The notes under the pieces were generated by a model. The model was not told where the DNA came from. It made no database searches and saw nothing but the letters and a program-made list of their open reading frames with translations. Below, in pieces: positions 6,901 to 46,514 of a stretch of DNA of 64,000 nt; position 1 is the first letter of the stretch; every line of letters begins with the position of its first letter. Source of the stretch: a virus; the IMG/VR virus record IMGVR_UViG_3300027770_000025, positions 1 to 64,000 of that record; one strand, written 5' to 3'. The position numbers and the translations under genes were made by a program.

Positions 6901-7798
6901 AATCAGTTACAGACGAAACGCCAGATCCAGTAAAGTTTAGACCAGTAACACCTACTCCTATCTGGGATCCACTAGAATAAGTATTTATAGCAGATCCTGA
7001 TCCCCCTGATCCACCAGGTATTGTAACCGTTACCGTATTGTATTGATCCCCAGTTTCAGTTACTGTAACACCAGCACCGGTAAATCCGACATACCAAGCT
7101 CCGTTGAAATGCTGTCCCGTTTGTCCAATGATTACTGGAACATAATCAGAAATTGCAAGTACGTCTATATTATAAGCAGCCTCTGCTATACCAGCTGGTA
7201 GATCCGGATATACATCATTCGAAACAGCATTTTGATATGTCCTATAATCAGATTGCTGAGATATTGCACTATAAGTAGCATTAGTAGGTACTCTATTAAG
7301 AGAACTGTATGCACCATCCTCATCATAAGTACAGAAGAAATTAATGTATTGATAAGATGGTTTATCGGTTATTTTGTTAATTACAAAGGTATTAAATACC
7401 CCCGAAATAGGATTAAATGATCCAGCATCTGTTGCTATGTTTGTAACTAAAAAACCCTCCAATAAATCAGCAGTTGTATAAATGCCGTTTACCTCAAGAT
7501 AAGTTCCTTCACAATAAAATACGCCGTCACCACACGATGTGGTAATGGTAACACCAGTATTAGTTGCTGTTCCATTGGCGGACATTACGAATGAAGAAGC
7601 ACCGTAATTAACAGAAATTACGGTAGTTGATGAGGGAATTCCTGTACCTGTTACAGCAAGACCTGGTATAATGAGATTAATATTAGATACGCTAGTAACT
7701 ACATTACTTCCGTTTGATACGTTTCCTGTTATCTGTGGTCCGTTGGTAAAAAATTCAGGTATAAATAATTGACCGGTTATTCTAGGTTGACTCCCCAT
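1..7798 (-). CDS. Giant collagen-like fibre protein (3' end beyond window)
   Basis: A single minus-strand frame runs without a stop from an ATG at 7798 to the left edge, giving at least 2599 codons. Residues 1 to about 317 are a Ser/Thr/Gly-rich, beta-type head without repeats. From there to the edge the protein is a run of Gly-X-Y triplets, mainly GTS, GSS, GSA, GAS and GNS, with almost no proline. It is broken once by a unique island of about 120 residues (about 2157-2276, bases 971-1330) that contains Trp and aromatic residues. The frame was confirmed at bases 7, 970, 2590, 6847 and 7798. The gene follows the 7811-10180 fibre gene by 12 nt, so it is probably co-transcribed with it. Known family context: collagen-like Gly-X-Y shafts are common in phage tail fibres. 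The Thr/Ser density makes O-glycosylation plausible (inference). The C-terminus is not visible. Confidence 0.9.
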   Translation of the reverse strand, partial: MGSQPRITGQLFIPEFFTNGPQITGNVSNGSNVVTSVSNINLIIPGLAVTGTGIPSSTTVISVNYGASSFVMSANGTATNTGVTITTSCGDGVFYCEGTYLEVNGIYTTADLLEGFLVTNIATDAGSFNPISGVFNTFVINKITDKPSYQYINFFCTYDEDGAYSSLNRVPTNATYSAISQQSDYRTYQNAVSNDVYPDLPAGIAEAAYNIDVLAISDYVPVIIGQTGQHFNGAWYVGFTGAGVTVTETGDQYNTVTVTIPGGSGGSGSAINTYSSGSQIGVGVTGLNFTGSGVSSVTDSSGYTTITISGGTGSGSSGTSGISGASGSSGTSGAAGSSGTSGAAGSSGTSGAAGSSGTSGANGSSGTSGANGSSGTSGSAGTSGASGSSGTSGAAGSSGTSGAAGSSGTSGAAGSSGTSGASGSSGTSGANGSSGTSGANGSSGTSGSAGTSGASGSSGTSGASGSSGTSGASGSSGTSGASGSSGTSGASGSSGTSGASGSSGTSGSAGTSGAAGSSGTSGAAGSSGTSGADGSSGTSGADGSSGTSGSAGTSGSAGSSGTSGTSGAAGSSGTSGADGSSGTSGADGSSGTSGSAGTSGASGSSGTSGASGSSGTSGASGSSGTSGANGSSGTSGANGSSGTSGSAGTSGASGSSGTSGASGSSGTSGASGSSGTSGSAGTSGASGSSGTSGENGSSGTSGSAGTSGASGSSGTSGSAGTSGANGSSGTSGASGSSGTSGADGSSGTSGANGSSGTSGASGSSGTSGADGSSGTSGSAGTSGAAGSSGTSGADGSSGTSGADGSSGTSGADGSSGTSGSAGTSGASGSSGTSGSAGTSGENGSSGTSGADGSSGTSGSAGTSGASGSSGTSGASGSSGTSGASGSSGTSGSAGTSGASGSSGTSGENGSSGTSGSAGTSGASGSSGTSGSAGTSGANGSSGTSGASGSSGTSGASGSSGTSGENGSSGTSGSAGTSGVSGSSGTSGSAGTSGANGSSGTSGASGSSGTSGENGSSGTSGSAGTSGASGSSGTSGSAGTSGANGSSGTSGASGSSGTSGVSGSSGTSGENGSSGTSGSAGTSGASGSSGTSGSAGTSGANGSSGTSGASGSSGTSGADGSSGTSGADGSSGTSGSAGTSGASGSSGTSGSAGTSGANGSSGTSGSAGTSGVNGSSGTSGTSGTSGTSGSAGTSGTSGTSGTSGTSGSSGTSGTSGTSGTSGTSGTSGTSGTSGSAGTSGTSGTSGTSGTSGSSGTSGTSGSAGTSGTSGSAGTSGTSGSAGTSGTSGTSGSAGTSGTSGTSGTSGTSGSAGTSGVNGSSGTSGTSGTSGTSGSAGTSGTSGTSGSAGTSGTSGTSGSAGTSGSAGTSGTSGTSGTSGSAGTSGSAGTSGVNGSSGTSGTSGTSGSAGTSGTSGTSGTSGTSGTSGSAGTSGTSGSAGTSGTSGSAGTSGTSGTSGTSGTSGSAGTSGTSGSAGTSGTSGTSGTSGTSGSAGTSGTSGSAGTSGTSGTSGTSGTSGTSGSAGTSGTSGSAGTSGTSGTSGTSGTSGSAGTSGTSGSAGTSGTSGTSGTSGTSGSAGTSGTSGTSGTSGTSGSAGTSGTSGSAGTSGTSGTSGTSGTSGTSGSAGTSGTSGTSGTSGTSGSAGTSGTSGSAGSAGSSGKTGSSGSSGTSGSAGTSGTSGTSGSAGTSGTSGSAGTSGTSGSAGTSGTSGSSGTSGTSGSAGTSGTSGTSGSAGTSGIAGLDGTAGSSGTSGNSGSAGTSGVNGSSGTSGTSGTSGTSGSAGTSGTSGSAGTSGTSGTSGTSGTSGSAGTSGTSGTSGTSGTSGSAGTSGSAGTSGTSGTSGTSGTSGTSGTSGTSGSAGTSGSAGTSGTSGTSGTSGSAGTSGSAGTSGTSGTSGTSGTSGTSGTSGSAGTSGTSGSAGTSGTSGTSGSAGTSGTSGTSGTSGTSGSAGTSGSAGTSGSAGTSGTSGTSGTSGSAGTSGSAGTSGTSGTSGTSGTSGTSGTSGSAGTSGTSGSAGTSGTSGTSGTSGTSGTSGTSGTSGTSGTSGSAGTSGTSGTSGTSGTSGSAGTSGTSGSAGTSGTSGTSGTSGTSGSAGTSGTSGTSGTSGTSGTSGTSGSAGTSGTSGSSGTSGSSGSSGTSGSSGSSGTSGAQGSQGDPGIDGANSGRWETNNPPEMGSGIIIGDNANFADTTSIDISDSSLTGAYTGWFNALDANQAAGKPSRLQITQVNDTSVFGIFTVGNLFYTVLNNFWTIPLTFVVGNGQWGGTETYSVSWMSDGAAGSSGTSGTSGTSGSAGTSGTSGTSGTSGTSGSAGTSGTSGSAGSAGSSGKTGSSGSSGTSGTSGTSGTSGSAGTSGTSGSAGTSGTSGTSGSAGSAGTSGTSGTSGSAGTSGTSGTSGTSGSAGTSGTSGTSGTSGTSGTSGTSGSAGTSGSAGSAGTSGTSGTSGTSGSAGTSGTSGSAGTSGTSGTSGTSGTSGSAGTSGTSGSAGTSGTSGTSGTSGTSGTSGTSGTSGTSGSAGTSGTSGTSGTSGTSGSAGTSGTSGSAGTSGTSGSAGTSGTSGTSGTSGTSGSAGTSGTSGSAGTSGTSGTSGTSGTSGTSGSAGT
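1331..4323 (-). repeat. Gly-X-Y coding repeat, middle block
   Basis: Tandem 9-bp units encode mainly GTS/GSA/GTS patterns. About 200 nt starting at 1761 are repeated identically from 2049, an offset of 288 bp. Part of the same unit also occurs 333 bp upstream, at about 1458. All offsets are multiples of 9, so whole triplets are gained or lost. Confidence 0.9.
4324..6847 (-). repeat. Gly-X-Y coding repeat, proximal block with 171-bp higher-order unit
   Basis: This block favours GSS, GTS, GAS, GAN and GAA triplets. A marker string recurs at 4330, 4501, 4672, 4816, 4987 and 5626. The steps are 171, 171, 144, 171 and 639 bp, all multiples of 9. The 171-bp unit equals 19 triplets. This points to amplification of long units on top of the 9-bp unit. 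Confidence 0.9.
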
Positions 7799-7810
7799 GT
7801 TTCTTTTATT

Positions 7811-10180
7811 TTAAAATTGCGCTCTTATATTTCTATCACCTGTTGAAAGAGCAGCCCAAACAAATACATTAGGCGTAGAAGTAAGTGTCATTGTTGCATT
7901 TATAGTTGCCCCTGCTGTTGTATAAACTCTCCAAACGGGAGCATATGAATTATAGATTGCATCATTCTGTCCTGCCCCGTTTGCTGATGATTGCGGTGTT
8001 GTTAGTGTGTATGTACTATTCATGGAGTCAGAAATAAGCATGCTCATGAGTTGAACATCACCACCAGAAGGGGCTACTATAGTTGAACCTGTTGCAGTAA
8101 CTGAAGAAGATGTAAATCCTAAGGAGTAAGCTGCTGAAGATCCTGAGGATGATCCGCTGTTCGCGGTAGCTACTGAGAATGAGTTTGCATCTATATAGGT
8201 AATGGTACCATTAAAGTTATCAGCATTTGCATTTCTTACTATGATCATATCTCCATTACTTCTTCCGTGAGAGGTGTGGGTAATCGTTAATGTTGTTGTT
8301 GATCTAGTCCACGAAAGTCCAGTATAAACTGTTGAACTAGATTCCATCCATATTTGCGCGTTTCCTGAAAGATATGTTCTGTACCTGGAAACCGTATTAT
8401 ATATGGTAGAGGATCCTCCAGATGCGTTTGATCCAGTAGGACCGGTAGGACCAGTTATACTAACTCCCGAAGTTCCTGATGATCCCGAGGCTCCCTGTAC
8501 TCCGAAATTTCCCGTTATTGAAAAACTCCATGACGCATAGGTATTACCCGCATTGCTGGCTGAAGTAACATTTATCGTTAAAGATGTTCCTGAGAATGCG
8601 GTGATGTCGCCTTCCATAAAGTTGTCGGCTACTGCAAAGGCTCTAACTCTCTCACCTACTTGGAATGCAGTTTGTGTATTTGATAAGTTTGTTGTCCATG
8701 TTTTACTTCCTGATCCTACTATAATATTAGAAGTAGTTGAAGTTAATCCATAATATCCTATACCTTGTGCTCCTGAAGTTCCTGCTGATCCTGAAGAACC
8801 TGAAGTTCCGCTAGTTCCTGATGTACCACTAGATCCTGAAGTTCCGCTAGTTCCTGATGAACCGTTAGAGCCTGATGTTCCACTAGATCCATTAACTCCT
8901 GATGTTCCACTAGATCCAGAAATTCCAGTGTAACCCTGAAGATTAACATTCCATACGCTGTAAGGATTTCCTGAGCCTATTTCATAACTACATAAAATAG
9001 TCATAGATCCCGTACCTGAATTATATGCTGTTACTAATCCAACAAATAATCCTACGGAGTTATTATAAACAGACACCGTTTCACCACCGGTAGAATTATA
9101 AGAAAGTCCAGTCCCAACAGTGATAGTTACACTATTTCCTACGGTTGGTATTGTCGTTGTGCTAACACTGGTTGTTTGATATAAACTTGCTCCATTAACC
9201 CCCGATGTTCCACTAGATCCGGAAGATCCTGATGAGCCAGAAGATCCTGATGTTCCTGAAGTCCCGGAAGATCCTGATGATCCTGATGATCCCGATGATC
9301 CCGAAGTTCCGCTAGTTCCAGATGATCCATTAGAACCCGATGTTCCTGATGAGCCACTAGAACCTGATGTTCCTGATGAACCGCTAGATCCAGATCTTCC
9401 TGATGATCCTGATGATCCTGATGATCCCGAGGTTCCGCTAGTTCCAGATGATCCATTAGAACCCGATGTTCCTGATGAACCGTTAGAACCGGATGTTCCT
9501 GATGACCCATCAATACCAGATGTTCCTGATGAACCGCTAGATCCAGAGCTTCCTGCTGATCCTGAAGTTCCTGCTGATCCTGAAGTTCCACTAGTTCCAG
9601 AGGAACCATCAACACCAGATGTTCCCGACGAACCGCTAGATCCAGAGGTTCCTGATGATCCTGAGGTACCACTAGTTCCTGAAGTTCCTGATGTTCCAGC
9701 TGATCCTGAAGATCCTGAAGATCCTGAAGATCCGCTAGTTCCTGAAGATCCATCAACACCGGATGTTCCTGATGAACCACTAGACCCAGAGCTTCCTGAA
9801 GTTCCACTAGTTCCTGCTGATCCTGAAGTTCCGCTAGTTCCTGCTGATCCTGAAGTTCCGCTAGTTCCTGCAGACCCTGAAGATCCACTAGATCCTGATG
9901 ACCCTGAGGTTCCACTAGTTCCTGAAGATCCTGAAGAGCCATCAAAACCACTAGTTCCTGAAGATCCATATGCCGGACCTTGAGGTCCTTGTGGACCCAC
10001 AGGTCCAGATGGACCGGTTACCCCTTCTATATAAGGTAGATCGTTCCATGGTTTTTGGCCATCCCCAATTTTTAATCTTCCTGTGTCTGATTCAACCCCA
10101 GGCTCTCCGAGCATCAAAACCGGATCATTATAAGACCAGTTTATCGAAAAGTCCCTTCTTAATAATATTCTGTATGGCAT
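7811..10180 (-). CDS. Tail fibre with Mtd-like N-terminal module and collagen-like shaft
   Basis: 789 aa. Residues 1-53 hold the module seen at the start of many phage fibres (RILLRRD, then GEPG, then TGRLKIGDG and W-DLPY), like the N-terminal domain of the major tropism determinant. After it come long runs of GSS, GTS and GSA triplets. Two unique beta-rich islands interrupt the shaft, and a unique C-terminal domain of about 170 residues ends the protein, perhaps the receptor-binding tip. The ATG at 10180 is preceded by an AATATATAC motif and by a terminator, so this gene likely starts a new transcript that also covers the giant fibre. Function in host adsorption is inferred from architecture. 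Confidence 0.85.
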   Translation of the reverse strand: MPYRILLRRDFSINWSYNDPVLMLGEPGVESDTGRLKIGDGQKPWNDLPYIEGVTGPSGPVGPQGPQGPAYGSSGTSGFDGSSGSSGTSGTSGSSGSSGSSGSAGTSGTSGSAGTSGTSGSAGTSGTSGSSGSSGSSGTSGVDGSSGTSGSSGSSGSSGSAGTSGTSGTSGTSGSSGTSGSSGSSGTSGVDGSSGTSGTSGSAGTSGSAGSSGSSGSSGTSGIDGSSGTSGSNGSSGTSGSNGSSGTSGTSGSSGSSGSSGRSGSSGSSGTSGSSGSSGTSGSNGSSGTSGTSGSSGSSGSSGSSGTSGTSGSSGSSGSSGSSGTSGVNGASLYQTTSVSTTTIPTVGNSVTITVGTGLSYNSTGGETVSVYNNSVGLFVGLVTAYNSGTGSMTILCSYEIGSGNPYSVWNVNLQGYTGISGSSGTSGVNGSSGTSGSNGSSGTSGTSGSSGTSGTSGTSGSSGSAGTSGAQGIGYYGLTSTTSNIIVGSGSKTWTTNLSNTQTAFQVGERVRAFAVADNFMEGDITAFSGTSLTINVTSASNAGNTYASWSFSITGNFGVQGASGSSGTSGVSITGPTGPTGSNASGGSSTIYNTVSRYRTYLSGNAQIWMESSSTVYTGLSWTRSTTTLTITHTSHGRSNGDMIIVRNANADNFNGTITYIDANSFSVATANSGSSSGSSAAYSLGFTSSSVTATGSTIVAPSGGDVQLMSMLISDSMNSTYTLTTPQSSANGAGQNDAIYNSYAPVWRVYTTAGATINATMTLTSTPNVFVWAALSTGDRNIRAQF

Positions 10181-22567: not shown

Positions 22568-23542
22568 TTAGCAGTACTTGTCCATCCAGTATTGGATCAT
22601 CTCATCTAGCATAGTTTCAAATGTGTATTCTGGTTCCCATCCTGTTTTATGCCTTAGCTTAAACGAATCACCTTTAAGATCGTCTAGCTCCTCTGGTCTC
22701 ATAAACTTTTGGTCCTGAACGACATAATCTTTCCAATCAAGGTCAAGCTTACCGAACACGTATTCTACAAGCTCCAAAACGGAATGTGATGTTCCAGTTG
22801 AACAAACATAATCGTCAGGTTCATCCTCTTGAAGGATCATCCACATAGCTTTAACGTAATCTTTAGCGTGTCCCCAATCTCTAGTAGCGTTTAAATTGCC
22901 TAGGCTGAGCTTTTCTGCCATACCTAGCTTAATCTCTACTGCAGCCTTTACTACCTTATTAGTGACAAAGTTTGTACCTCTGCGTGGTGATTCGTGGTTG
23001 AATAGAATACCGTTACTTATAAACATTCCATATGAATTTCTATAGTTTCTGCAGATGTTGTACGAGAATACTTTAGCACACCCATAAGGTGATACCGGAT
23101 TCATTGGGGTCGTTTCTCTCTGGTACCTATCATCATCGATAGAATTGCCAAACATTTCCGAAGATGATGCCTGGTAGATCTTAATGTCCTTATTAAACAC
23201 TCTTACAGCTTCCAGTAAATTTAGTGTTCCTATGCCTGTTGCTTGTGCAGTATAAACTGGTTGGTCAAAAGATATTCTAACATGCGACTGAGCAGCTAAG
23301 TTATAAACCTCATGCGGGTTAGAGATATTTAAAGCATGCAAAAGAGACGGGACATCTAAAAGGTCTGCATAAATAAGGTTGCCTTTTATTTTTTCGTAAA
23401 CAGAATCTAGCCTGGATGTTTGATTTTCTGATACTGAATTTCTTTTGATTGTTCCGAATACATTGTAACCCTTATTGATCAGAAATTCTGCAAGGTAACT
23501 TCCATCTTGTCCATTAATACCTGTTATTAAAGCTCTTTTCAT
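22568..23542 (-). CDS. gmd: GDP-mannose 4,6-dehydratase
   Basis: 324 aa from the ATG at 23542; the frame is open 12 codons further but this start gives the normal N-terminus MKRALITGINGQDGS and overlaps the upstream stop as TAATG. The NAD(P)-binding GxxGxxG is at 8-14, the catalytic SSSEMFG region at 126-132 and the YxxxK pair at Y153/K157. The enzyme converts GDP-mannose to GDP-4-keto-6-deoxymannose, the first step to GDP-L-fucose; the next enzyme (Fcl) is the adjacent gene. It is somewhat shorter than cellular Gmd. It is the last gene of the sugar operon. Confidence 0.93.
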   Translation of the reverse strand: MKRALITGINGQDGSYLAEFLINKGYNVFGTIKRNSVSENQTSRLDSVYEKIKGNLIYADLLDVPSLLHALNISNPHEVYNLAAQSHVRISFDQPVYTAQATGIGTLNLLEAVRVFNKDIKIYQASSSEMFGNSIDDDRYQRETTPMNPVSPYGCAKVFSYNICRNYRNSYGMFISNGILFNHESPRRGTNFVTNKVVKAAVEIKLGMAEKLSLGNLNATRDWGHAKDYVKAMWMILQEDEPDDYVCSTGTSHSVLELVEYVFGKLDLDWKDYVVQDQKFMRPEELDDLKGDSFKLRHKTGWEPEYTFETMLDEMIQYWMDKYC

Positions 23543-24453
23543 TATTTTCTTATATTTGGATAATTTTCTTTGAACCATGTTACTGATTTGTGTATTCCCT
23601 CCTCAATTGGGGTGAATTCAAAATCTGGTGCTATTGATCTTATGACAGAATTATCACTTGGTTTCCTAAATTGGCCTTCAGGTTTATCTAAATCCCAAAT
23701 TATCTTACCCCTGAAATTAAATTCACTTGCTATAATTTCCACTACTTCTTTTATTGATATCTCTTTTCCTGAAGATATTATAACAGGAATTCCCTCTTTA
23801 TAGTTATCAAAAAGGATACGGGTTAGATCAGCTACGTCCTCTGAAAATACAAATTCCCTAAGGGGGCTTCCAGATCCCCATATGGTAACATCTGATCCGC
23901 TGATATCTGCTAAGTGAAATTTGTGAATTAATGAGGGAAGAACATGTCCATCTTCTAAATTATAATTATCTGCTGGACCGTATATGTTACAGGGGATCAC
24001 ACTAAAATAATTAACACCATATTGCTCTCTATATGATTGCATCTGTATCTCTGCCATTCTTTTAGCATACGCATAGCCATAATTAGAAGAATGCGGTGGG
24101 CCAAGATGAATCTTATCTGGTGTGAGTGGATATTCTACTTTATCAGGAAATACACAGGTTGAAGAAAATGCAATCAGCTTTTTAATTCCTGCTTTTCTAG
24201 CCTCCTCTATGATTCCGGTATTCATCTTGAGGTTCCCGTAGGTGAATTCTCCAGGATATTCCATATTACCCTTTACCCCTCCAACTCTAGCTGCACAGTG
24301 TATGACCCCTTCTATCTCTTTATTCTTTAGAAAATCCCCTATTGAATTTTGATTCAGAAGATTAAGATCATTAGACCCTATTTTTATGTAATCTTCACCA
24401 ATAAATCTTGATCCAACTAATCCTGTTCCCCCTGTAATTAATATCTTTCCCAT
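23542..24453 (-). CDS. fcl: GDP-L-fucose synthase
   Basis: 303 aa. It has the SDR Rossmann motif GGTGLVG (8-14), the family marker AARVGG (54-59), FSSTCVFP around the catalytic Ser, and YxxxK at Y127/K131. The segment SVIPCNIYGP is typical of GDP-fucose synthase (WcaG/Fcl). It epimerises and reduces the Gmd product to GDP-L-fucose. Coupled by TAATG overlap to gmd. A GT11 fucosyltransferase in the same operon can use the product. Confidence 0.93.
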   Translation of the reverse strand: MGKILITGGTGLVGSRFIGEDYIKIGSNDLNLLNQNSIGDFLKNKEIEGVIHCAARVGGVKGNMEYPGEFTYGNLKMNTGIIEEARKAGIKKLIAFSSTCVFPDKVEYPLTPDKIHLGPPHSSNYGYAYAKRMAEIQMQSYREQYGVNYFSVIPCNIYGPADNYNLEDGHVLPSLIHKFHLADISGSDVTIWGSGSPLREFVFSEDVADLTRILFDNYKEGIPVIISSGKEISIKEVVEIIASEFNFRGKIIWDLDKPEGQFRKPSDNSVIRSIAPDFEFTPIEEGIHKSVTWFKENYPNIRK

Positions 24454-24481: not shown

Positions 24482-25297
24482 CTACCATTTGCCAATGGTC
24501 TTATATTTTTTATTGTATTCCTGATTTTGGTAGTATTGTATAGTCTGATCCTTGTCCATTCTTTTGCATTGCTCGAAGACATCCCAATTTTCCTTTGCTT
24601 TTGGGTTAGCCTCACTACTGTCAGAACCTCTATAGTGTTCAAAGTGATAAACCTTACAGTCGCTTATCCAATTAACATTAAATCCCATTTTTTGAAATCT
24701 CTCGCCTCTTTCTTTATCTTCAGGTCCATATGAAATAAAATTCTCATTCTCTGCACCATATTTTTTATAGATCCATGTATTAAAGAAAATGCAATGTCCA
24801 TATTCAGAATCATAGTCAGACCAAGGTCCAATAACGTCTATGTGATTTAGATCAAATCCATTCTCATAAAATCTTGGATAATCAAAATTATCTAAAACTC
24901 TTCTTTGACCTCCTGGACCGAATCTATAGGGGTATACTACGTCGCTATCCCCATTGGTTATGTCATAAGTAATTTTTTTATAAAATTTGGCCGGTATAAT
25001 TACGTCTATGTCATAGTTAGCAACAACTGGTGTTTGCACATCATCAAGCATGATGTTTAGATATTTAGTTCTATGAAAAATCCCCTCATCTTCTGATTTC
25101 CAGTGTTTAATCTTTAGATTTTTTAGATCATCTAGAAAATCTAATTTACTTATCCCATCTTCACAGATCTCGTATATAAATACATTAGTCTCAAGATGCT
25201 GATTCAAAAATCCTAAAACAGTTTTAGCATTTCTGTACCGATCAGAATGCTCTACCTTGATCGGTATGATTAGTGTACAATTTTTTAAATCAATCAT
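24482..25297 (-). CDS. Glycosyltransferase, GT2/GT7-C-like
   Basis: 271 aa. GT-A fold features: an N-terminal strand LIIPIK, DxD at NYDIDVI (about 95), and a C-terminal GPEDKERGERFQ motif like the galactosyltransferase C-domain, in which ED would be the catalytic pair. Likely transfers a hexose from a nucleotide sugar in the cytoplasm; donor unknown. It overlaps the GT6 gene by 8 nt and lies before fcl. Confidence 0.75.
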   Translation of the reverse strand: MIDLKNCTLIIPIKVEHSDRYRNAKTVLGFLNQHLETNVFIYEICEDGISKLDFLDDLKNLKIKHWKSEDEGIFHRTKYLNIMLDDVQTPVVANYDIDVIIPAKFYKKITYDITNGDSDVVYPYRFGPGGQRRVLDNFDYPRFYENGFDLNHIDVIGPWSDYDSEYGHCIFFNTWIYKKYGAENENFISYGPEDKERGERFQKMGFNVNWISDCKVYHFEHYRGSDSSEANPKAKENWDVFEQCKRMDKDQTIQYYQNQEYNKKYKTIGKW

Positions 25298-26057
25298 TGT
25301 GTTTTTGTATTGTTCCCCTCAATTCTTTCTTACCTCCAAAATCATCCTTGTTTAATTGAAGTATTTTAGGGTCTCCGAATTTTTTTATTATTTCGTAATG
25401 ATTATCCCTTGCTGGATCCCCTACAAAACAATCTGGATACGCAAACGTAGGATCTAATATTTTTGGATTTTTTTCCATCATATACCAATTTAAAGCACTC
25501 TCATCATGCCATAGCGGTATTATATTTCTACTTAAATCCAAGTCAATCAAACGGGATAGTTCTTCTGACATCCTGAGAAATTCATTAGTTTTACCGCCAT
25601 TGAAACATCCTTGAAAATAGTTTCTTTCCTTACCTACTGGAAAATAAAATGATGACATAGGGTTTCTTTCTAGCGGATACTCATTCCTGGGTTCTAAATA
25701 AAAACCTGGATGCAATGTTACTATTAGACCACATCCGTTAGGTGTTTCTAGAATAGAACTTCCTATTGTGGATACTACTTTCATATTAGCATTCATAAAG
25801 AAAATGTAATCAAATTCCTCTAATTGCTTTTTAATAGAGTTAAACATATGAAATCTCATCATTGTATCGAATGGCCATCCGAGTTTTTGCTGCTCCACCT
25901 TTATTACGTCTTCCGAGAATTTTATATTTTCCGAATCAGTAAAGACGAAATATTTTTTCTCCGATCCTGGCAGAAAATACTTATTGCATGATTCAACCAG
26001 ACCATCAATAAATATGTCATATTTTCCTGTTGCTATTGTTGTTACTGCAATTCTCAT
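25290..26057 (-). CDS. GT6-family glycosyltransferase (ABO blood-group transferase family)
   Basis: 255 aa, no membrane anchor, the size of bacterial GT6 enzymes. Family hallmarks: TIATGKY at the N-terminus, KYFVFTDS, KLGWPFDTMMRF, FFMNANM (NAN at 89-91 in place of the mammalian DxD, as known for bacterial GT6), HPGFY, NYFQGCFNGG and WHDESALNWY (183-192) with the likely catalytic Glu186. GT6 enzymes add alpha-1,3-Gal or alpha-1,3-GalNAc, in the ABO case to Fuc-alpha-1,2-Gal. By eye, the two residues that set A/B donor choice correspond to Gln149 and Cys151, so the donor cannot be predicted. Overlaps the upstream gene by 41 nt. Confidence 0.9.
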   Translation of the reverse strand: MRIAVTTIATGKYDIFIDGLVESCNKYFLPGSEKKYFVFTDSENIKFSEDVIKVEQQKLGWPFDTMMRFHMFNSIKKQLEEFDYIFFMNANMKVVSTIGSSILETPNGCGLIVTLHPGFYLEPRNEYPLERNPMSSFYFPVGKERNYFQGCFNGGKTNEFLRMSEELSRLIDLDLSRNIIPLWHDESALNWYMMEKNPKILDPTFAYPDCFVGDPARDNHYEIIKKFGDPKILQLNKDDFGGKKELRGTIQKHND

Positions 26058-26844
26058 TTTCTCGTTTTTGATTTGAAAGTTTTTTGAATATAGGCAGATG
26101 TCCGCCGTTTAAATTTATATAAACACTAAACAATTCAGGATTTCTCTTAAAAGCAATGGCTAATGCGATCTGCTCATTATTTACCATATTTAATTCTAGC
26201 ATTTCTTTTTCCAATATATTAATGACCATATCTGAGACTTTAGATACTATCGTACCGGTACCCCCGAATAATGTACCTACAAGAATACAGTTGTTATCCC
26301 ATTTATATTCTTCCGTGTTCATAGATGAGTATATTCTTTCCGTGTTCACATTCCCCTGTATAATAAATCTATCTTTATCTAAATTTTGTAAATTTGGCCA
26401 ATCTAAAGAAAGATCGAAATCAGAAAAAAATCTGCTACATCCCGCATCAAGCCAGAAATAAAAATCCGAATGTTTTTTTATTTCATTTTGAATCCATCCA
26501 AATTTAGAATACTGTATTATATTATATAGGTCTAGGTTGCATTCTATTCTAGAATTGTCCTTTATTCTTGAAAGGTAGTCTGCATCATTCAGTATTTTAT
26601 TTATTGAATCTTTGTGTTTGTACATTGGAATTTCTTCTAGCCTCTGAATTCTTATTTCAGTGCATTCAGGATCTCTATGTTCTTCTATAAATTTTTTAAA
26701 TTTCTCCTCGGTATAAATGATCATATGAACCTTTAATCGTAGGGTTTCTTTGAACCATTCGAGATATTGGGTCATCGGCCTACCATCTCCTAGATTTTCT
26801 CTACCTATGTCAAATAAGGCAGTGATTACTTTTATTCCACCCAT
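26017..26844 (-). CDS. HtrL/YibB-like protein
   Basis: 275 aa. The start (VITALFDIGRENLGDGRP, then YLEWFKETL) and the FYFWLDAGCSRF segment match the HtrL/YibB family, which occurs in LPS and capsule loci and has a glycosyltransferase-like layout but no settled activity. It overlaps the GT6 gene by 41 nt and the GT4 gene by 13 nt, so it is part of the operon. Probably acts on sugars; substrate unknown. Confidence 0.75.
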   Translation of the reverse strand: MGGIKVITALFDIGRENLGDGRPMTQYLEWFKETLRLKVHMIIYTEEKFKKFIEEHRDPECTEIRIQRLEEIPMYKHKDSINKILNDADYLSRIKDNSRIECNLDLYNIIQYSKFGWIQNEIKKHSDFYFWLDAGCSRFFSDFDLSLDWPNLQNLDKDRFIIQGNVNTERIYSSMNTEEYKWDNNCILVGTLFGGTGTIVSKVSDMVINILEKEMLELNMVNNEQIALAIAFKRNPELFSVYINLNGGHLPIFKKLSNQKRENENCSNNNSNRKI

Positions 26845-27779
26845 TTGCTAATTGTTTCTGCATATTCTTTTACAAGCTTAGTCCAATCAAAATTAGCCAA
26901 TCCATATTTTCTAATCTCTGATCTCATTCTATTAGAAATCTCTTGATTTTTTCTGATACTTTCACTTACGTAATCAAGGTCATGCAATTTATCATTAGGT
27001 ATAATTTCTATGAATGGTAGAGATCTATCAAGATTCCCACTAGCATATTCACTGACAACCAAACCGAGACCGCATATTAAAGCTTCACAACAAACTAAGG
27101 GATGTGCTTCACCGTCGCTTAAAAGAACAAGATTAGAATATTTGGATAATTCTTTATAGAGCTTATCCTTAGTCCATTCACCTAAGTAATTGCTTCTATT
27201 AAAATTAAACCTATGATCATCCTGGTTTCCTGCAAAGTGTATAAACTCAAGATCTTGATAAATGTATTGTTTCTTTCTATCTGTTATTTTAGCTAAGTAT
27301 ATGCTTTTATCTAAAAATTCTGGAGAATCGTAGTATTCAAAAAGATCGCTTCTTGCTCCGTTTGGGGTTACGTATAATCTGGATGGATCTGCTCCACCGT
27401 TAAGATAAACCTGTCTTATACCTTCAGAGAGACAGAATATTTTAAAATCACTATCTACAAATCCTTTAAATATTCTATGATATCCTCCCAGTAGATGATG
27501 GGGTACTTCTAAGTACCCGAAATGTGAAGTTGCAGCTTTATTTGGACACGAGATATGTGGCAAAACGTGATAAAGATCGTCATATTGCAAATGCACAAAA
27601 TCCGGATTAAATGAATTTACTTGGTTTACTATCTCTTGGGGGTTTTGTGTATTTACAATCTGTACTTCGTGCCCTAACTTTGTTAGCTCCTGGTAATAGT
27701 CCCAGATCAATATCTCAACTGCTCCCCATCCTACTGGAGGAATAGGCATGATTCCCGGACCTATTATGCAGATCTTCAT
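26832..27779 (-). CDS. GT4-family glycosyltransferase
   Basis: 315 aa from the ATG at 27779 (MKICIIGPGIM), which overlaps the upstream stop as ATGA; a longer start 9 codons earlier would add residues with no family counterpart. GT-B layout: the N-terminal glycine-rich GPGIMPIPPVGWGAVE and the C-terminal donor site SDGEAHPLVCCEAL with the E-x7-E pair, followed by VVSEYASGN. Retaining GT4 enzymes use nucleotide-diphosphate sugars; donor unknown. Confidence 0.88.
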   Translation of the reverse strand: MKICIIGPGIMPIPPVGWGAVEILIWDYYQELTKLGHEVQIVNTQNPQEIVNQVNSFNPDFVHLQYDDLYHVLPHISCPNKAATSHFGYLEVPHHLLGGYHRIFKGFVDSDFKIFCLSEGIRQVYLNGGADPSRLYVTPNGARSDLFEYYDSPEFLDKSIYLAKITDRKKQYIYQDLEFIHFAGNQDDHRFNFNRSNYLGEWTKDKLYKELSKYSNLVLLSDGEAHPLVCCEALICGLGLVVSEYASGNLDRSLPFIEIIPNDKLHDLDYVSESIRKNQEISNRMRSEIRKYGLANFDWTKLVKEYAETISKWVE

Positions 27780-28315
27780 TTTTTCTCCGGTTTCCTTACT
27801 GACCAACTAGTATCTTCAAAGAAATTTAATTCCTCTGCCGAGAAGAATTCGTCAACTGCTCCTCTTACTCCACGGTCCCGGGGATCTTCATGAATGTAAT
27901 CGTGACCGCATATTATTCCCGAATCTTTTAGCTTAGGAAGGGAGATATTAATATCTCTTAATACAAATTCTTTATCGTGGTTTGCATCTATGTAAACAAA
28001 ATCAAAATACAAATCAGGTAAACCCGGAATTATTTCTTTTATATCACCTTTTTTAAATATGATATTAGGATTCTCTTTTAATTTTTTTTCCAATTTCCCG
28101 GTGGAAATTAAATCTATAGCTATTACTTCTTTGCAATAATAAGAAAATAAAGAGGTACTAACCCCATCATTAACCCCCAATTCCAATACTATGTGGCCTT
28201 TATTCATTCCGTGGAATTTACACATATCGTCTAACCCTTTTAGATAATTTTGTCTATTTTGATAAGCTCCCCCATGACCATCCATTCTTTCTTCGTAAAG
28301 ATTTGGCTTTTCCAT
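27776..28315 (-). CDS. SAM-dependent methyltransferase
   Basis: 179 aa. Class I methyltransferase core: VLELGVNDGVS (motif I), AIDL (motif II), a DFVYIDANHD segment and GGHDY-like CGHDY typical of the Methyltransf_24 group often found in polysaccharide loci. Likely O-methylates a sugar or works on a glycan precursor. First codons MEKPNLYEE; the last codons overlap the GT4 start. Confidence 0.8.
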   Translation of the reverse strand: MEKPNLYEERMDGHGGAYQNRQNYLKGLDDMCKFHGMNKGHIVLELGVNDGVSTSLFSYYCKEVIAIDLISTGKLEKKLKENPNIIFKKGDIKEIIPGLPDLYFDFVYIDANHDKEFVLRDINISLPKLKDSGIICGHDYIHEDPRDRGVRGAVDEFFSAEELNFFEDTSWSVRKPEKK

Positions 28316-35201: not shown

Positions 35202-36212
35202 CTATATTTTTATTAGTGAACATATGGATTTAATTAAATCCAATATATTCGGATTAGAATCCCAATTGAGAATTTTTTTAGAGAGATTGTTATTACCCAT
35301 GGATTTTTTAATTGTTTCTTTCTCCACTATAGTTTTTCTGAGTGGAAATTTACCGTCAAAAAGGTCATCATAGCTATCCCATAATTTATCAGATTCTCTG
35401 TACGTGGCATCTATATTTTTTTCTAATGCTATACCTTCTTTGACACTCTCTAAAATATCTTTGACCGAGGTTAATGTACCGCTTGAAACATTAAATGTAT
35501 TATACCCTTTATTATCCATATTTAGACATTTCTCTATGAGGTCAACCACATCATTAACATAAACATAATCCCTTGACTGCTCACCGTCCGAATGTAATAT
35601 CGGGGATCTACCATTCTTAAGCTCCCTTACTATATAGTTTATTAGCGGTGGGGATTTTCTGTGTATATCCTGTCTGGGACCAAATACATTAAAAAATCTT
35701 AGTGTTGTTATATTCATACCATAATTTTCAGAGAAGGATGTGCATATCTCCTCTGCCATTTTTTTAGATAATGAATAAAAGAGCCTTGGATTTATCTCGT
35801 CTGATTCGGAGAATCCTTTATTACTGAGCGGTGTGTTTTCATAAACTGCGCTGGTGCTTGCAAATATTATCTTTTCTATACCATATTTTCTTGCAGCTCC
35901 TAGAACCGAAGCAGTTCCTTCAACATTACATCTTATACATTCTCTGTAATTTACTTCGCAATCAGGAAGAGATGTTATAGCTGCAAGATGCACTATAGCA
36001 TCAGGTATTTCCTCAGATATTAAGTTATGAAAATCGTCAGAATTTACATCAATCTTATAAAATTGGCCAAAAGTCTTACCATCAACAATTAGATTTTCTA
36101 TGTACCCGTTACGCAAATTATCAACCAGAATAAGATCGTGTCCGTTCTGATTTAGAAAATGCCCGAGTGTGGATCCTATACCACCAGCAGCCCCTGTTAT
36201 AAGTATTTTCAT
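35202..36212 (-). CDS. NAD-dependent sugar epimerase/dehydratase
   Basis: 336 aa. Extended SDR: GAAGGIGS (7-14), HLAAITS, FASTSAVYE around the catalytic Ser/Thr, and YSLSK (Y-x-x-x-K) near residue 146, then LRFFNVFGPRQ and SRDYVYVNDVV. This is the pattern of UDP-glucose/GlcNAc 4-epimerases and related enzymes. It would supply UDP-Gal, UDP-GalNAc or another modified donor for the transferases, but the exact substrate cannot be told from sequence alone. Confidence 0.88.
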   Translation of the reverse strand: MKILITGAAGGIGSTLGHFLNQNGHDLILVDNLRNGYIENLIVDGKTFGQFYKIDVNSDDFHNLISEEIPDAIVHLAAITSLPDCEVNYRECIRCNVEGTASVLGAARKYGIEKIIFASTSAVYENTPLSNKGFSESDEINPRLFYSLSKKMAEEICTSFSENYGMNITTLRFFNVFGPRQDIHRKSPPLINYIVRELKNGRSPILHSDGEQSRDYVYVNDVVDLIEKCLNMDNKGYNTFNVSSGTLTSVKDILESVKEGIALEKNIDATYRESDKLWDSYDDLFDGKFPLRKTIVEKETIKKSMGNNNLSKKILNWDSNPNILDLIKSICSLIKI

Positions 36213-36214
36213 TA

Positions 36215-37285
36215 TTATATTTTCAAATATTGATTAATGCTATCGCTATCTCTTGGTATATTTATTGAAGAGCAAGAAGGATATGGATTAGATTTAGCGA
36301 AATCGTTTATCAGAAGTCTTTGCGAATGAGGTAGTCCCATAATTAGAATATCATGGGGTATATTATGCTTATTCATTTCCACGATAGTTAATTCCCTATA
36401 CTCTTCAGGTCTGCTCGTGGTTATAATAATAAACCCACCATTTTCTTTTATTTTTCTAATCATACTTATATTATCAATAAGTGGCTTACCCTCACCTATA
36501 AACGGCGGTATTAAATGGGATGTATTAGTTATAAGCGTTCCGTCTAGATCTGTAAAAACAGTATATAATTTTTCCTTATAATCATTCCAAGATTTTATTG
36601 TTCCCCAATCTAGAAACGCTAAAGACTCGTTACCCCTGAATATTTTATTATCTAGTATCATTTCAAATATAACATTGCTTATGTAGCATTCACCCGTAAG
36701 ATTACCTATCCTGTTATAATAATCACAGAATTCATTAGCTGAATTAAATCCGTAACCCCCCACGCAAAAATTAGAGCTTATAACTCTTTTTTCGACCATA
36801 TTTATAATGGTGTTATTGGAATCAAGTTCTATATAGCTTTTAGATTTTGCATTTATTTCATCTATATTATTTATATCAAAATATGTTACTTGATTATCGT
36901 CTGATTCTATATCACATTCGAAATACCCATCGGAATCTTTAATATAGATGAATCCATTAATTCCTGTCTTCTGGATAGCCATGTAAACAGTTTCTGCCTG
37001 TGAATTTGTAGACATATCTAGAACTATTGTATTTATACGATCAAGCACTGTATCCATAGAAATGGTATTTTTTATGGATTTCTTTATCGCTCCGGAAGCA
37101 TTATAAAGGTCCTCATGTTCTTTCAGAAAGACAAAATATATTTGATCGAAAAAATCTAGGTTTATTCCACGTATAGATTCTACGCACATAAGGTTTCCTG
37201 TTAAAGGGTGTGTTAGCATCCATTTGGGTCTCATTCCAGGGAATCTAGAGGATTTACCTCCCATAGGTATTATTAAATTCTTCAT
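36215..37285 (-). CDS. Sugar nucleotidyltransferase fused to HAD phosphatase
   Basis: 356 aa in two parts. Residues 1-240 are a nucleotidyltransferase: PMGGKSSRFPGMRPKWML is the G-x-x-S-R-F-x10-K activation loop. Residues 241-356 are a HAD domain: FTDLDGT (244-250), TTSRPEEYRE (HAD motif II region) and a short C-terminal lobe. Such fusions occur in capsule loci and would activate a phosphosugar or similar alcohol phosphate and remove a phosphate. It overlaps the kinase-like gene by 32 nt, suggesting a kinase, phosphatase and nucleotidyltransferase working in one pathway. Confidence 0.78.
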   Translation of the reverse strand: MKNLIIPMGGKSSRFPGMRPKWMLTHPLTGNLMCVESIRGINLDFFDQIYFVFLKEHEDLYNASGAIKKSIKNTISMDTVLDRINTIVLDMSTNSQAETVYMAIQKTGINGFIYIKDSDGYFECDIESDDNQVTYFDINNIDEINAKSKSYIELDSNNTIINMVEKRVISSNFCVGGYGFNSANEFCDYYNRIGNLTGECYISNVIFEMILDNKIFRGNESLAFLDWGTIKSWNDYKEKLYTVFTDLDGTLITNTSHLIPPFIGEGKPLIDNISMIRKIKENGGFIIITTSRPEEYRELTIVEMNKHNIPHDILIMGLPHSQRLLINDFAKSNPYPSCSSINIPRDSDSINQYLKI

Positions 37286-38126
37286 AGATAGGTAATTTTT
37301 TTATAATTTTTTCAATTGTTAATCTGTCATGCTCTTGCTTAGCGTATGGATATATTCTTAAAAAATTTAAAGCTTCTAATACTTTAAATTCTTCAGATGC
37401 AACTATTTTAGGGTATTTCATCTCTATCGACCTCCATATTTTAAGCGACGTTTGAACACATCTGAGGTTTAGCTCATTATTGTCTTTTAAAAAACTCCAG
37501 AAATAAAAAAGATCCTGCTTTAATTTAACCAGATCTATTACCCAGCTTTCAATATACGAATCTAGAAAGTCTAGTATAAAGATATGGCTTTTACTAAATA
37601 ATATATTAGATAGTGTTAGATCGCCGTGACAAAAGCTCCTTGGTATTTCTACGTTTTCTAGCTTTAATATTTTCTTTTCTATAAAATCGGAAAATTCACC
37701 ATCAGGGATGTTTTTTTTAATAGACCCCAATTTTTCTCTGCAGATTTCAGAAAATTGTATATCGGTATATTTGTCTTCTGTTGATCCGATGGAATCAATA
37801 TAGTTAAATATAGATTTTGTAAATAAGTCAATATCCTCTGGTGATGAGTAATTTAGAAAATATCTATAATCTTTACCTGTAGCATATTCCATGATAAAAT
37901 ATTCCAGATCGTATTCATCCCTACCAGTTTCTGTTATAAGCGGGCATTGTATACCTGAAATATCCATCATTCTAAATTCGTATTGTTTTTTTATCTGATT
38001 GATCAGCCTGTGATTATACCCTTTGTCGGATGATACTTTTCTAACTGATTTACCATCGGATGAGATAGTTAATTTACATCCAGATAATCCACCCGTAAGG
38101 GATTTTACCAATCTGTGCTGGCTCAT
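37254..38126 (-). CDS. Aminoglycoside/choline-kinase-like phosphotransferase
   Basis: 290 aa from the ATG at 38126, which overlaps the fucosyltransferase stop as TAATG. FCHGDLTLSN (166-174) is the H-G-D-x4-N catalytic loop (Asp169) and ILDFLDS (184-190) the metal-binding Asp of the APH/choline kinase fold. It would phosphorylate a sugar or small alcohol, and the next gene encodes a nucleotidyltransferase-HAD fusion that could activate the product. Substrate unknown. Confidence 0.78.
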   Translation of the reverse strand: MSQHRLVKSLTGGLSGCKLTISSDGKSVRKVSSDKGYNHRLINQIKKQYEFRMMDISGIQCPLITETGRDEYDLEYFIMEYATGKDYRYFLNYSSPEDIDLFTKSIFNYIDSIGSTEDKYTDIQFSEICREKLGSIKKNIPDGEFSDFIEKKILKLENVEIPRSFCHGDLTLSNILFSKSHIFILDFLDSYIESWVIDLVKLKQDLFYFWSFLKDNNELNLRCVQTSLKIWRSIEMKYPKIVASEEFKVLEALNFLRIYPYAKQEHDRLTIEKIIKKLPIYEEFNNTYGR

Positions 38127-38977
38127 TATAGTATTTTCCAATTTTTACAGTAGATATCTGATGTATCATTCTGTATTAAATCTCCGAACCATCTAGAGGG
38201 TGCAATTACAATTTTATCCGGGTTTACATTTAACCAAGCACCCCACCAGCTAAATGAGCTGTTTGCAATTATATTATGATCGCATAAAGACATCGCACAC
38301 ATTTCAGTATATGGATTTTCTAGATTGCTAATTATATAATTCGGATCATTAAACTCTGTTTTACACCATTCAACGTCATCTGAGAATATCACATATATGA
38401 TATTCTCGTTTAGTATTCTAAGCTCTTCGATTGCATTGTTATAATAATTAAAAGAACATGGCGGGTGATGATCTGGGAACATGACATAATCTCCTCTTCT
38501 AACGTGTATAGAAGCTATTACAGCATCTTTATTCTCTTTCCTTATTGTTTGTATATAAGACTCGGCAGAGTCCTTATATGGGCTTTTAAATGTGAACTGT
38601 GAGAGTATAGAATCCCTGAATTCATCAAAGTATTTTTCAGTCTGGAAGTACCCGTTTAATGAGCAATCATCATAAAGGCTTTCCACTCCTGTATTATATC
38701 CAAATTCATTCTCGCTGTAATAATACCCTTGATTTATGTGTCTTTGCGGAATGAAGTATTCTGGACTGATATCAAAGCAATCAGTAAGATCACATTTAAC
38801 CGGCATGCATCGTCCGATCTTAGGATCGAAAGGACCAGACTCTTGATAATTAAGGCAATTCTCTATAGGAAATCTTGCAATAGTATTTAATCTATTGGCA
38901 ATTCCTAGGGTTGAGGCAAATTGAAACATCTGGTTTCCTAGCCTCCCCATATAACCTATTTGTTGAAATGATATCAT
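38126..38977 (-). CDS. GT11 alpha-1,2-fucosyltransferase
   Basis: 283 aa. Family marks: GRLGNQMFQFA (11-21), the GDP-fucose-binding HVRRGDY (158-164), YVIFSDDVEWC, the downstream SLCDHNIIANSSFSWWGAWLN, and NPDKIVIAPSRWF. These are diagnostic of GT11 alpha-1,2-fucosyltransferases, which put fucose on a terminal galactose, making the H-type structure. GDP-fucose is supplied by Gmd and Fcl in the same operon. It is the first gene of the sugar operon; a possible promoter with TATTTTGG lies about 33 nt upstream. Confidence 0.93.
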   Translation of the reverse strand: MISFQQIGYMGRLGNQMFQFASTLGIANRLNTIARFPIENCLNYQESGPFDPKIGRCMPVKCDLTDCFDISPEYFIPQRHINQGYYYSENEFGYNTGVESLYDDCSLNGYFQTEKYFDEFRDSILSQFTFKSPYKDSAESYIQTIRKENKDAVIASIHVRRGDYVMFPDHHPPCSFNYYNNAIEELRILNENIIYVIFSDDVEWCKTEFNDPNYIISNLENPYTEMCAMSLCDHNIIANSSFSWWGAWLNVNPDKIVIAPSRWFGDLIQNDTSDIYCKNWKIL

Positions 38978-40673: not shown

Positions 40674-40860
40674 TCTTTTGATCTTTTTTAGATTGTACGT
40701 ATTTAGCTTTTTTAATCTCGTCCCTTCTGGATACACTTTTCTTTTTAAAATTTTTTCTCTCTTTAAGCTCCTGTATTATTTGTAATTTGGTGTATTTGTA
40801 TTTATATTTTTTGAGAGCAGCATCAATACTTATTTTACCGTTAATGTTTATCTGGATCAT
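40663..40860 (-). CDS. rpsU: Ribosomal protein bS21 homologue
   Basis: 65 aa, strongly basic. INGKISIDAALKKYKYKY, LQELKERKNFKKKSVSRRDEIKKAKYVQ align by eye along the full length with bacterial bS21 (helix-turn-helix, R-R-x-x-F-x-K-P/K-S-x-R-R motif). Phage-borne bS21 is known from large phages. In Bacteroidota, bS21 takes part in hiding the 16S anti-Shine-Dalgarno sequence, so a phage copy could alter which mRNAs are translated (inference). The start overlaps the Clp gene by 20 nt; no strong Shine-Dalgarno is seen. Ends in a terminator. Confidence 0.88.
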   Translation of the reverse strand: MIQININGKISIDAALKKYKYKYTKLQIIQELKERKNFKKKSVSRRDEIKKAKYVQSKKDQKRDQ

Positions 40861-42916
40861 TCTGGTTTGGTTTCTTTTTTGCAGTTATCTTAACCTTTAC
40901 TGGAATCTGCATATCTGCTTCTTTTACTGAATCATAAGAAAGCGTAACTGTACTCCCCTCCTCAATCTTACCTTGTACCATAAGATCAGCTAAAGTGTCT
41001 TCTACGTATTTTTGGAGCATTCTCTTAATAGGTCTTGCCCCAAACTTGGGATCAAATCCATTTTCTGCTATCTTTTCTTTTAGATCCTGAGCAACCTTTA
41101 CCTTGTATCCAAGACTTTCTAATCTAGGCATAATCTTGCTTATCTCAACATCGAGGATGTTAATAACGTCTTCCTTTTCTAATGCTTTAAAGTAAACTAT
41201 GTCATCTAATCTGTTTATAAACTCAGGGGAGAATGTTTTTTGTAATTCTTTCTTTAACAGAATCTCATTTTCAGTCTCTGCTTTATCCTGTTTAGATTTA
41301 GTGGTGAATCCCATGCCTCCGCTGTAGTCCTGAAGATTTCTTTGACCCACATTGGATGTTAAAATTATTAGCGTGTTTTTAAAATTAATCTTTCTACCCA
41401 TTCCATCTGTAATAGATCCCTCATCTAATATCTGTAACATGGTGTTAAATATGTCTGGATGTGCTTTTTCAATTTCATCAAATAGTACTATAGAATAAGG
41501 TTTCCTTCTAACCTTTTCTGTTAGTTGCCCACCATCTTCGTGTCCAATATATCCTGGGGGAGCACCAATTAATTTAGTTGCTTCAAATTTCTCCATATAT
41601 TCGCTCATATCAACTCTAATAAGAGCGTCGGGATCACCGAACATAATGCTGGCAAGTTCTTTAGCTAGTTGTGTTTTACCGACACCAGTTGGTCCAATAA
41701 AGATAAATGAGCCAATTGGTTTATTTGGATCTTTTAGCCCCATTCTATTCCTTCTGATAGCTTTAGCAATTTTTTCTATTGCGTGATCCTGCCCAATTAC
41801 TTTAGCCTTAAGATCTGGCTCAAGACTAATAAGTTTTTCGTTTTCTAATTGGGTTACTTTTTTAAGAGGAATACCTGACATCATCGAAACAACCTCTGCT
41901 ACCCTTTCGCCATCTACGACTTTCTTTCTCTCCTTCATTTTTTTCTCCCAGTCTTTAACCTCAATATCTAATGATATTTTGATTTTTCTCTCCTGGTCCC
42001 TATATTTAGCAGCAGCCTCGTAATCTTGTTTAGCCACTGATTTTTTCTTATCCGCTTGAACAGTCTCCAGATTTTTCTCTAATGTCTTAATAACCTCTGG
42101 AACCTTAACATCGGTTAATTGGGTTCTACTTCCTGCCTCGTCCATAGCATCTAATGCTTTATCTGGGAAGTTACGATCAGTGATATATCTTTCTGTTAAT
42201 TTAGCGCAATTAACAATTGCATCATCAGTGTAAGTTACGTTATGATGCTCTTCGTACTTTTGTTTAACGTTATTTAGAATTAATAGCGTTGTTTCTAAAT
42301 CTGGTGCATCTACCTGAACTTTTTGAAATCTTCTTTCTAATGCTCCGTCCTTCTCGATGTTTTGCCGATATTCATTTATCGTTGTTGCTCCGATACATTG
42401 TATCTCACCTCTTGATAAAGCAGGCTTAAACATATTAGCAGCATCTAATGATCCTGATGCTCCCCCAGCTCCAACCATAGTGTGAATCTCATCAATAAAT
42501 ACGATTACGTTTTTATTACCTCTAAGCTCTTCTAAAATTGCTCTTATCCTTTCTTCAAATTGTCCACGATATTTAGTACCTGCAACAACAGATCCTAGAT
42601 CTAAGCTAAGTACCCTTTTGTTAAGTAATCCTCTGGAAACTTTTCTCTGCACAATTCTAAGCGCAAGTCCTTCTGCAATAGCAGATTTACCTACACCGGG
42701 ATCACCAATTAAAACCGGATTATTCTTTTTCCTTCTTGAAAGAACTTGCGAAACCCTTTCTATCTCTTCATCTCTACCTATAATAGGATCGAGTTCTCCC
42801 TTTATAGCCATCTCTGTTAAGTCTCTTGAATATTGATCAAGAGCCGGAGTTTTGCTACTTCCCTTTTTATAGGTAGGATCGTTTAAATTATCATCGTACT
42901 CGTCTTCGAAAGCCAT
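40841..42916 (-). CDS. Clp-family AAA+ unfoldase (ClpC/ClpA-like, lacking the N-domain)
   Basis: 691 aa with two AAA+ modules: Walker A GDPGVGKS at 71-78 and GPTGVGKT at 408-415, Walker B VIVFIDEIH and SIVLFDEIEKAH, plus a UVR-like stretch (KQDYEAAAKYRDQERKI, about 296-312) in the short middle domain, as in ClpC. The usual Clp N-domain of about 140 residues is absent. GGMGF at 533-537 stands where ClpA/ClpC carry the loop that docks on ClpP, so it may recruit host ClpP to degrade chosen proteins. An exact early-type promoter lies 26 nt upstream of the ATG; bS21 is co-transcribed. Confidence 0.92.
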   Translation of the reverse strand: MAFEDEYDDNLNDPTYKKGSSKTPALDQYSRDLTEMAIKGELDPIIGRDEEIERVSQVLSRRKKNNPVLIGDPGVGKSAIAEGLALRIVQRKVSRGLLNKRVLSLDLGSVVAGTKYRGQFEERIRAILEELRGNKNVIVFIDEIHTMVGAGGASGSLDAANMFKPALSRGEIQCIGATTINEYRQNIEKDGALERRFQKVQVDAPDLETTLLILNNVKQKYEEHHNVTYTDDAIVNCAKLTERYITDRNFPDKALDAMDEAGSRTQLTDVKVPEVIKTLEKNLETVQADKKKSVAKQDYEAAAKYRDQERKIKISLDIEVKDWEKKMKERKKVVDGERVAEVVSMMSGIPLKKVTQLENEKLISLEPDLKAKVIGQDHAIEKIAKAIRRNRMGLKDPNKPIGSFIFIGPTGVGKTQLAKELASIMFGDPDALIRVDMSEYMEKFEATKLIGAPPGYIGHEDGGQLTEKVRRKPYSIVLFDEIEKAHPDIFNTMLQILDEGSITDGMGRKINFKNTLIILTSNVGQRNLQDYSGGMGFTTKSKQDKAETENEILLKKELQKTFSPEFINRLDDIVYFKALEKEDVINILDVEISKIMPRLESLGYKVKVAQDLKEKIAENGFDPKFGARPIKRMLQKYVEDTLADLMVQGKIEEGSTVTLSYDSVKEADMQIPVKVKITAKKKPNQNDPDKH

Positions 42917-46385: not shown

Positions 46386-46419
46386 ATTGTTATATGTTTT
46401 CTTTATCCCAAGTTATGAG

Positions 46420-46492
46420 ATCCTATAGAGGGATTCGAACCCCCGACATTCTCATTAAAATGAGATGCTCTAACCAGCTGAGCTAATGTAGA
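46420..46492 (-). tRNA. tRNA-Lys(TTT)-like, acceptor stem degenerate
   Basis: D arm GCTC/GAGC, anticodon stem TCTCA/TGAGA with loop TTTTAAT (anticodon TTT) and T arm GGGGG/CCCTC are good. The acceptor TCTACAT/TATAGGA pairs only in its first three positions. The 5' acceptor strand coincides with the -7 slot of an early-type promoter, which may explain the loss of pairing. Confidence 0.6.
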
Positions 46493-46514
46493 AAAAAGTT
46501 TCGGGATAAAAAAA
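46483..46514 (-). promoter_or_regulatory. Early-type promoter overlapping the tRNA-Lys 5' end
   Basis: TTTTTTTATCCCG, 11 nt, then TACATTAG (one change from TAnnTTTG). The -7 slot lies inside the tRNA-Lys acceptor strand, so transcription from it would start within the tRNA; it could serve tRNA-Cys and downstream genes. Confidence 0.5.

Follow-up and report, generated by a model that had tools for sequence, protein, structure and literature searches.

A jumbo-phage GT6 glycosyltransferase that combines an NxN motif with a QGC donor tripeptide, encoded in a GDP-fucose/GT11 gene cluster

Glycosyltransferase family GT6 is a model for the choice of a donor sugar by a few residues and for catalysis without a metal ion. 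What sugar would such an enzyme transfer when it is encoded by a phage, would it need a metal, and what would it modify? We addressed these questions for a gene in IMG/VR record IMGVR_UViG_3300027770_000025, within positions 1–64,000 (the 64,000-nucleotide stretch referred to here as ‘the window’). The record is a jumbo phage of 348,582 bp that carries tail-fibre, SbcCD, DnaB-like, UvsX-like and tail-sheath-like genes. The tail sheath is matched best by those of an uncultured phage of 462 kb, a Flavobacterium phage and further huge phages, the Prevotella Lak phages among them, which provides a weak hint that the host may belong to the Bacteroidota. The first 10 kb of the window (1–10000) have a GC content of 0.44–0.48, versus ∼0.34 elsewhere in the window, and contain collagen-like tail-fibre genes. 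A tRNA-like gene at 46419–46493 has an unassigned two-base anticodon (tt).

The GT6 gene belongs to a run of 20 glycan genes between 22.5 and 39 kb that share one direction and often overlap; none of them evidently encodes a membrane protein for O-antigen export. The members considered here are as follows (values are those of the profile or PDB matches).

22568..23578, minus strand: GDP-mannose 4,6-dehydratase (GMD); Pfam 1.1e-116, PDB GMDs to 2.9e-98
23542..24453, minus strand: GDP-L-fucose synthase (FCL/WcaG); PDB GDP-L-fucose synthases to 2.9e-85
24482..25297, minus strand: phrog_15655 protein, probable glycosyltransferase; PHROG 1.1e-63, function unknown
25290..26057, minus strand: GT6 glycosyltransferase, 255 aa; NAN 89–91, QGC 149–151, WHDE 183–186, K237
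26017..26844, minus strand: HtrL_YibB family protein, upstream of GT6; Pfam 3e-15
26832..27806, minus strand: GT4-type glycosyltransferase; phrog_33732 2.5e-117
35202..36212, minus strand: SDR epimerase, GalE-like; Pfam 5.4e-53, PDB UDP-glucose 4-epimerases
36215..37285, minus strand: HAD-domain protein; weak Pfam HAD matches
37254..38141, minus strand: APH-type kinase; Pfam 4.7e-07
38126..38977, minus strand: GT11 fucosyltransferase (alpha-1,2 type); Pfam 2.5e-30, HVRRGD at 158–163

The best NCBIfam match of the GMD is the gmd family, but at 396.5 bits (cut-off 415); the FCL also falls below the cut-off of its best NCBIfam match, and the GalE-like protein far below that of galE, its best match there. 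The latter is a putative enzyme that could possibly supply UDP-Gal or UDP-GalNAc. The N-terminus of the HAD-domain protein resembles a sugar nucleotidyltransferase by eye, while PF00483 (nucleotidyltransferase) was not found in the phage record, this protein included. The phrog_15655 gene overlaps the GT6 stop by 8 bases; its cyanophage relatives are annotated as glycosyltransferases, and it also adjoins GT6 in a second viral locus, L072. On the other side, the HtrL_YibB gene overlaps the GT6 start by 41 bases, and the GT4-type protein is a 55% match to a neighbour of GT6 in a third locus, L001. A PDB sequence search with the GT11 protein returned nothing.

An earlier note, made from the sequence of the window, had proposed that the phage encodes a GT6 enzyme, and profile, sequence and structural comparisons all bore this out. 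The reading frame is intact, with an ATG start, and the encoded protein begins at residue 1 of the Bacteroides ovatus enzyme BoGT6a in the alignment. It matches the Pfam GT6 profile (PF03414) at 4.7e-30 and NCBIfam NF041524 at 254.8 bits, above the curated cut-off of 250 bits, and BoGT6a is its best relative in a PDB sequence search (1.2e-50). An AlphaFold model (pLDDT 90, pTM 0.88), for which the input alignment comprised the window and fetched loci only, displays a GT-A fold with the GT6 layout. Comparison with PDB folds placed BoGT6a complexes at the top (TM 0.86–0.87, rmsd 1.9, E 3.8e-29), ahead of the human ABO blood-group transferases GTA and GTB. The homology is far beyond chance. We conclude that this is a real, intact enzyme gene of a known family, with the fold and conserved active site of that family.

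The motif FFMNANM, which the note had recognized but placed one residue off (at 87–92), corresponds to residues 86–92. Within it, N89-A90-N91 aligns with N95-A-N97 of BoGT6a and with DVD at the human DxD site, in agreement with the proposal that NAN replaces DxD. The catalytic glutamate was likewise rightly recognized: E186, within WHDESALNWY (residues 183–192; W183-H184-D185-E186 form the WHDE motif), aligns with E192 of BoGT6a. The donor contacts T10, Y13, R68, H116, E186 and K237 are all kept. The segment YFQGCFNGG aligns with human B-type YYMGAFFGG and with YYAGGLSGG of BoGT6a, which puts Gln149 and Cys151 at human positions 266 and 268, as the note had judged by eye. Chance oddity or misalignment was rejected as an explanation for these two residues, since HMMER and MAFFT alignments agree on them and ∼100 relatives share them. 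A hand count on the same alignment assigns the remaining human A/B positions to Gln56 (176) and Gly118 (235), the latter being A-like. Human GTA and GTB share the GT6 fold, the catalytic glutamate and likely the H-type acceptor with the phage enzyme, but differ in their DxD motif and in having LGG or MGA rather than QGC. The human enzymes are metal-dependent and membrane-anchored.

The closest comparison for metal use is BoGT6a (PDB 4ayj, 4cj8), a metal-independent alpha-1,3-GalNAc transferase that shares its fold, NAN motif, catalytic glutamate and C-terminal lysine with the phage protein; it is bacterial rather than viral, is ∼38% identical, and has AGG (with Gly at 268) in place of QGC. BoGT6a is active without metal, and the metal independence of the NxN clade has been published for this enzyme: Asn95 contacts the donor, touching the GalNAc nitrogen, and the diphosphate is bound by two residues close to the C-terminus, Lys231 and Arg243 (PMC3961637). 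The phage enzyme retains N89 and K237, and probably R247, so that metal independence would be expected. As in BoGT6a, UDP would be held by N89 together with K237 and probably R247 of the C-terminal cap, instead of by a metal ion.

The note had also regarded Gln and Cys as an unusual donor site. This did not survive a survey of relatives, in which QGC is more frequent than any other tripeptide of phage GT6s and belongs mostly to cyanophage enzymes with DxD; a QGC tripeptide peculiar to the window enzyme was accordingly rejected. DAD with QGC occurs in 97 of 121 distinct GT6 sequences, nearly all of them viral, a count inflated because one collecting scan used a YxQGC pattern. QGC was also present in 8 of 12 phage loci fetched after a plain protein search, and therefore represents a standing phage type. 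NAN with QGC was found in only three of the 121 (the window, L001 and L072), all viral and all in one clade. Judged by these sequences, the rare feature is NxN combined with QGC, and not QGC itself. The novelty lies in that combination and in its setting, a phage GDP-fucose/GT11/GT6 cluster, the GT6 family itself being known.

The cyanophage GT6s (from Synechococcus phages B23, Bellamy, S-CAM9 and others) are also phage-borne, carry QGC and adjoin GT11. They are 31–37% identical to the window enzyme and differ from it by an additional stretch of loop following the HP motif and by their DxD motif, because of which they are probably metal-dependent. NxN and DxD phage enzymes thus share a donor tripeptide, indicating that the choice of donor and the use of a metal vary independently, which allows the two to be tested against each other. 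In one cyanophage-type subgroup (L006–L009, L094, L095, L097 and L099–L104), FYEE or YYEE replaces WHDE and Thr replaces the donor-site Arg, with the catalytic glutamate kept.

A GT6 tree of 37 representatives (<68% identity), computed without the motif columns, grouped the window enzyme with L001 and L072 (support 98/92). In the best tree this clade joins the bacterial NxN enzymes (88/75), with one change for NxN and two for QGC. Grouping of the clade with the QGC cyanophage enzymes, with QGC as a single clade, was not rejected (p-AU 0.09). On these topologies, either NxN or QGC has changed more than once. Searches of ∼890 bacterial genomes yielded few further GT6s: three of 396 Bacteroidota genomes (centre genome included) and one of 399 Pseudomonadota above the cut-off.

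What donor would a QGC pocket accept? The tripeptides tested in vertebrate GT6 enzymes are LGG, AGG, MGA, GGA and HAA (PMC6351642), and a published structural hypothesis holds that GalNAc transfer by GT6 enzymes needs Gly at 266 or 268 (PMC4692239). Both glycines are absent from the phage pocket (Gln149, Cys151), so by that hypothesis UDP-GalNAc should be excluded and UDP-Gal is predicted; Q149 and C151 would leave the N-acetyl group no room. From these two positions, UDP-Gal (B-type) is most likely the donor, an ordinary reading that is stronger than the note's suggestion that donor use may be new. The same module could instead use UDP-GalNAc and build an A-like cap, as BoGT6a, the closest solved and nearest characterised relative, is a GalNAc transferase, Gly118 is A-like, and the Asn that contacts the GalNAc nitrogen (PMC3961637) is kept as N89. 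We consider this unlikely, since the phage enzyme lacks the Gly at 266 or 268 proposed as a requirement (PMC4692239), where BoGT6a has Ala-Gly-Gly. It is improbable that QGC denotes an additional class of GT6 donor use, common to phage enzymes with NxN and with DxD, in which a sugar that is neither Gal nor GalNAc is transferred onto a fucosylated glycan; that sugar may be UDP-Glc or a modified sugar of phage make.

The acceptor is best approached through the neighbouring genes. The note had envisaged a fucosylated acceptor, which is plausible, but it overlooked the main evidence: GDP-fucose supply (GMD and FCL), GT11 and GT6 lie in one co-directional cluster. The linkage recurs elsewhere. GT11 was present in 14/14 and 29/36 GT6 records in two sets, and 129 of 144 GT6 loci had it within the flank that was fetched, on the same strand every time, although these counts are inflated by related loci. 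The separation is <300 bp at 94 of those 129 loci and 12 kb in the window. By comparison, the window GT11 was matched in only 102 of 50,697 phage records. Among the 37 tree representatives, GT11 was absent from the examined stretch only in L036 (a 6-kb fragment), L041, L072, L077 and L082. Of 47 records, 27 carry a GMD, and GMD, FCL and GT6 occur together again in L072, with no GT11 on its 75-kb contig. Parts of the cassette are common to phages that are otherwise dissimilar.

Given the co-directional GT11 at most loci, the acceptor is probably fucosylated. We think it quite unlikely that the enzyme instead forms a linear alpha-1,3 linkage on a non-fucosylated acceptor, with GMD, FCL and GT11 serving another glycan branch. 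The 12-kb separation in the window, the missing GT11 in L072 and a DxD+AGG phage subclade (L077, L080, L082–L084 and L107) entirely without GT11 would fit that arrangement; the near-universal same-strand pairing in phages and bacteria, and the position of FCL and GMD close downstream of GT6 in both the window and L072, argue against it. The members of that subclade have DAD with AGG and no GT11 on any contig, but GMD is present in five of the six records.

From the enzyme's family, fold and active site, the cluster and the GT11 linkage, we infer a donor, acceptor, metal independence, destination and benefit, and on balance somewhat favour an active, metal-independent, retaining, B-type GT6 alpha-1,3-galactosyltransferase that caps a fucosylated glycan, either on the infected cell or on the virion. 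GMD and FCL would convert GDP-mannose to GDP-L-fucose, and GT11 would place fucose alpha-1,2 on a terminal glycan sugar to give an H-like acceptor. GT6 would then transfer galactose from UDP-Gal onto the same sugar, forming a blood-group-B-like branched cap. Fucosylation by a GT11 followed by GT6 capping is also the order in E. coli O86, where a fucosyltransferase and WbnI make up a blood-group-B pathway (PMC4202792), in that case within a bacterial O-antigen locus. The GDP-fucose, GT11 and GT6 genes suggest a portable blood-group-like capping pathway in several phage lineages, which offers concrete, cheap assays of the products of phage sugar clusters.

The cap's destination is most likely the infected-cell surface, where it might remodel a glycan, for example against rival phages. 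Host-surface alteration against rivals has been proposed for sugar clusters of both cyanophages (PMC2984593) and jumbo phages (PMC7824862). The P-SSM2 and jumbo-phage polysaccharide clusters described there also combine phage glycosyltransferases with sugar-nucleotide genes, the P-SSM2 GT6 differing in its DVD with AGG. Decoration of the virion, on its tail fibres or its capsid, appears rather unlikely: the cluster has no evident membrane protein and collagen-like tail-fibre genes lie within the same window, but similar clusters are usually read as modifying the host surface (PMC7824862, PMC2984593).

Several other viral GT6 domains are fused to additional enzymes. In L090:4312–6717 and L092:4405–6738, GT6 lies behind methyltransferase and GT2 domains in reading frames of ∼780–800 aa, with GT11 directly after. 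In L041:3242–4834 (LR756502.1, a 642-kb phage), GT6 is fused to an N-terminal GT2-like domain. A protease-like ATPase encoded just upstream of that gene is 59% identical to the product of 40841–42916 in the window; the sugar islands of these two huge phages therefore adjoin the same gene.
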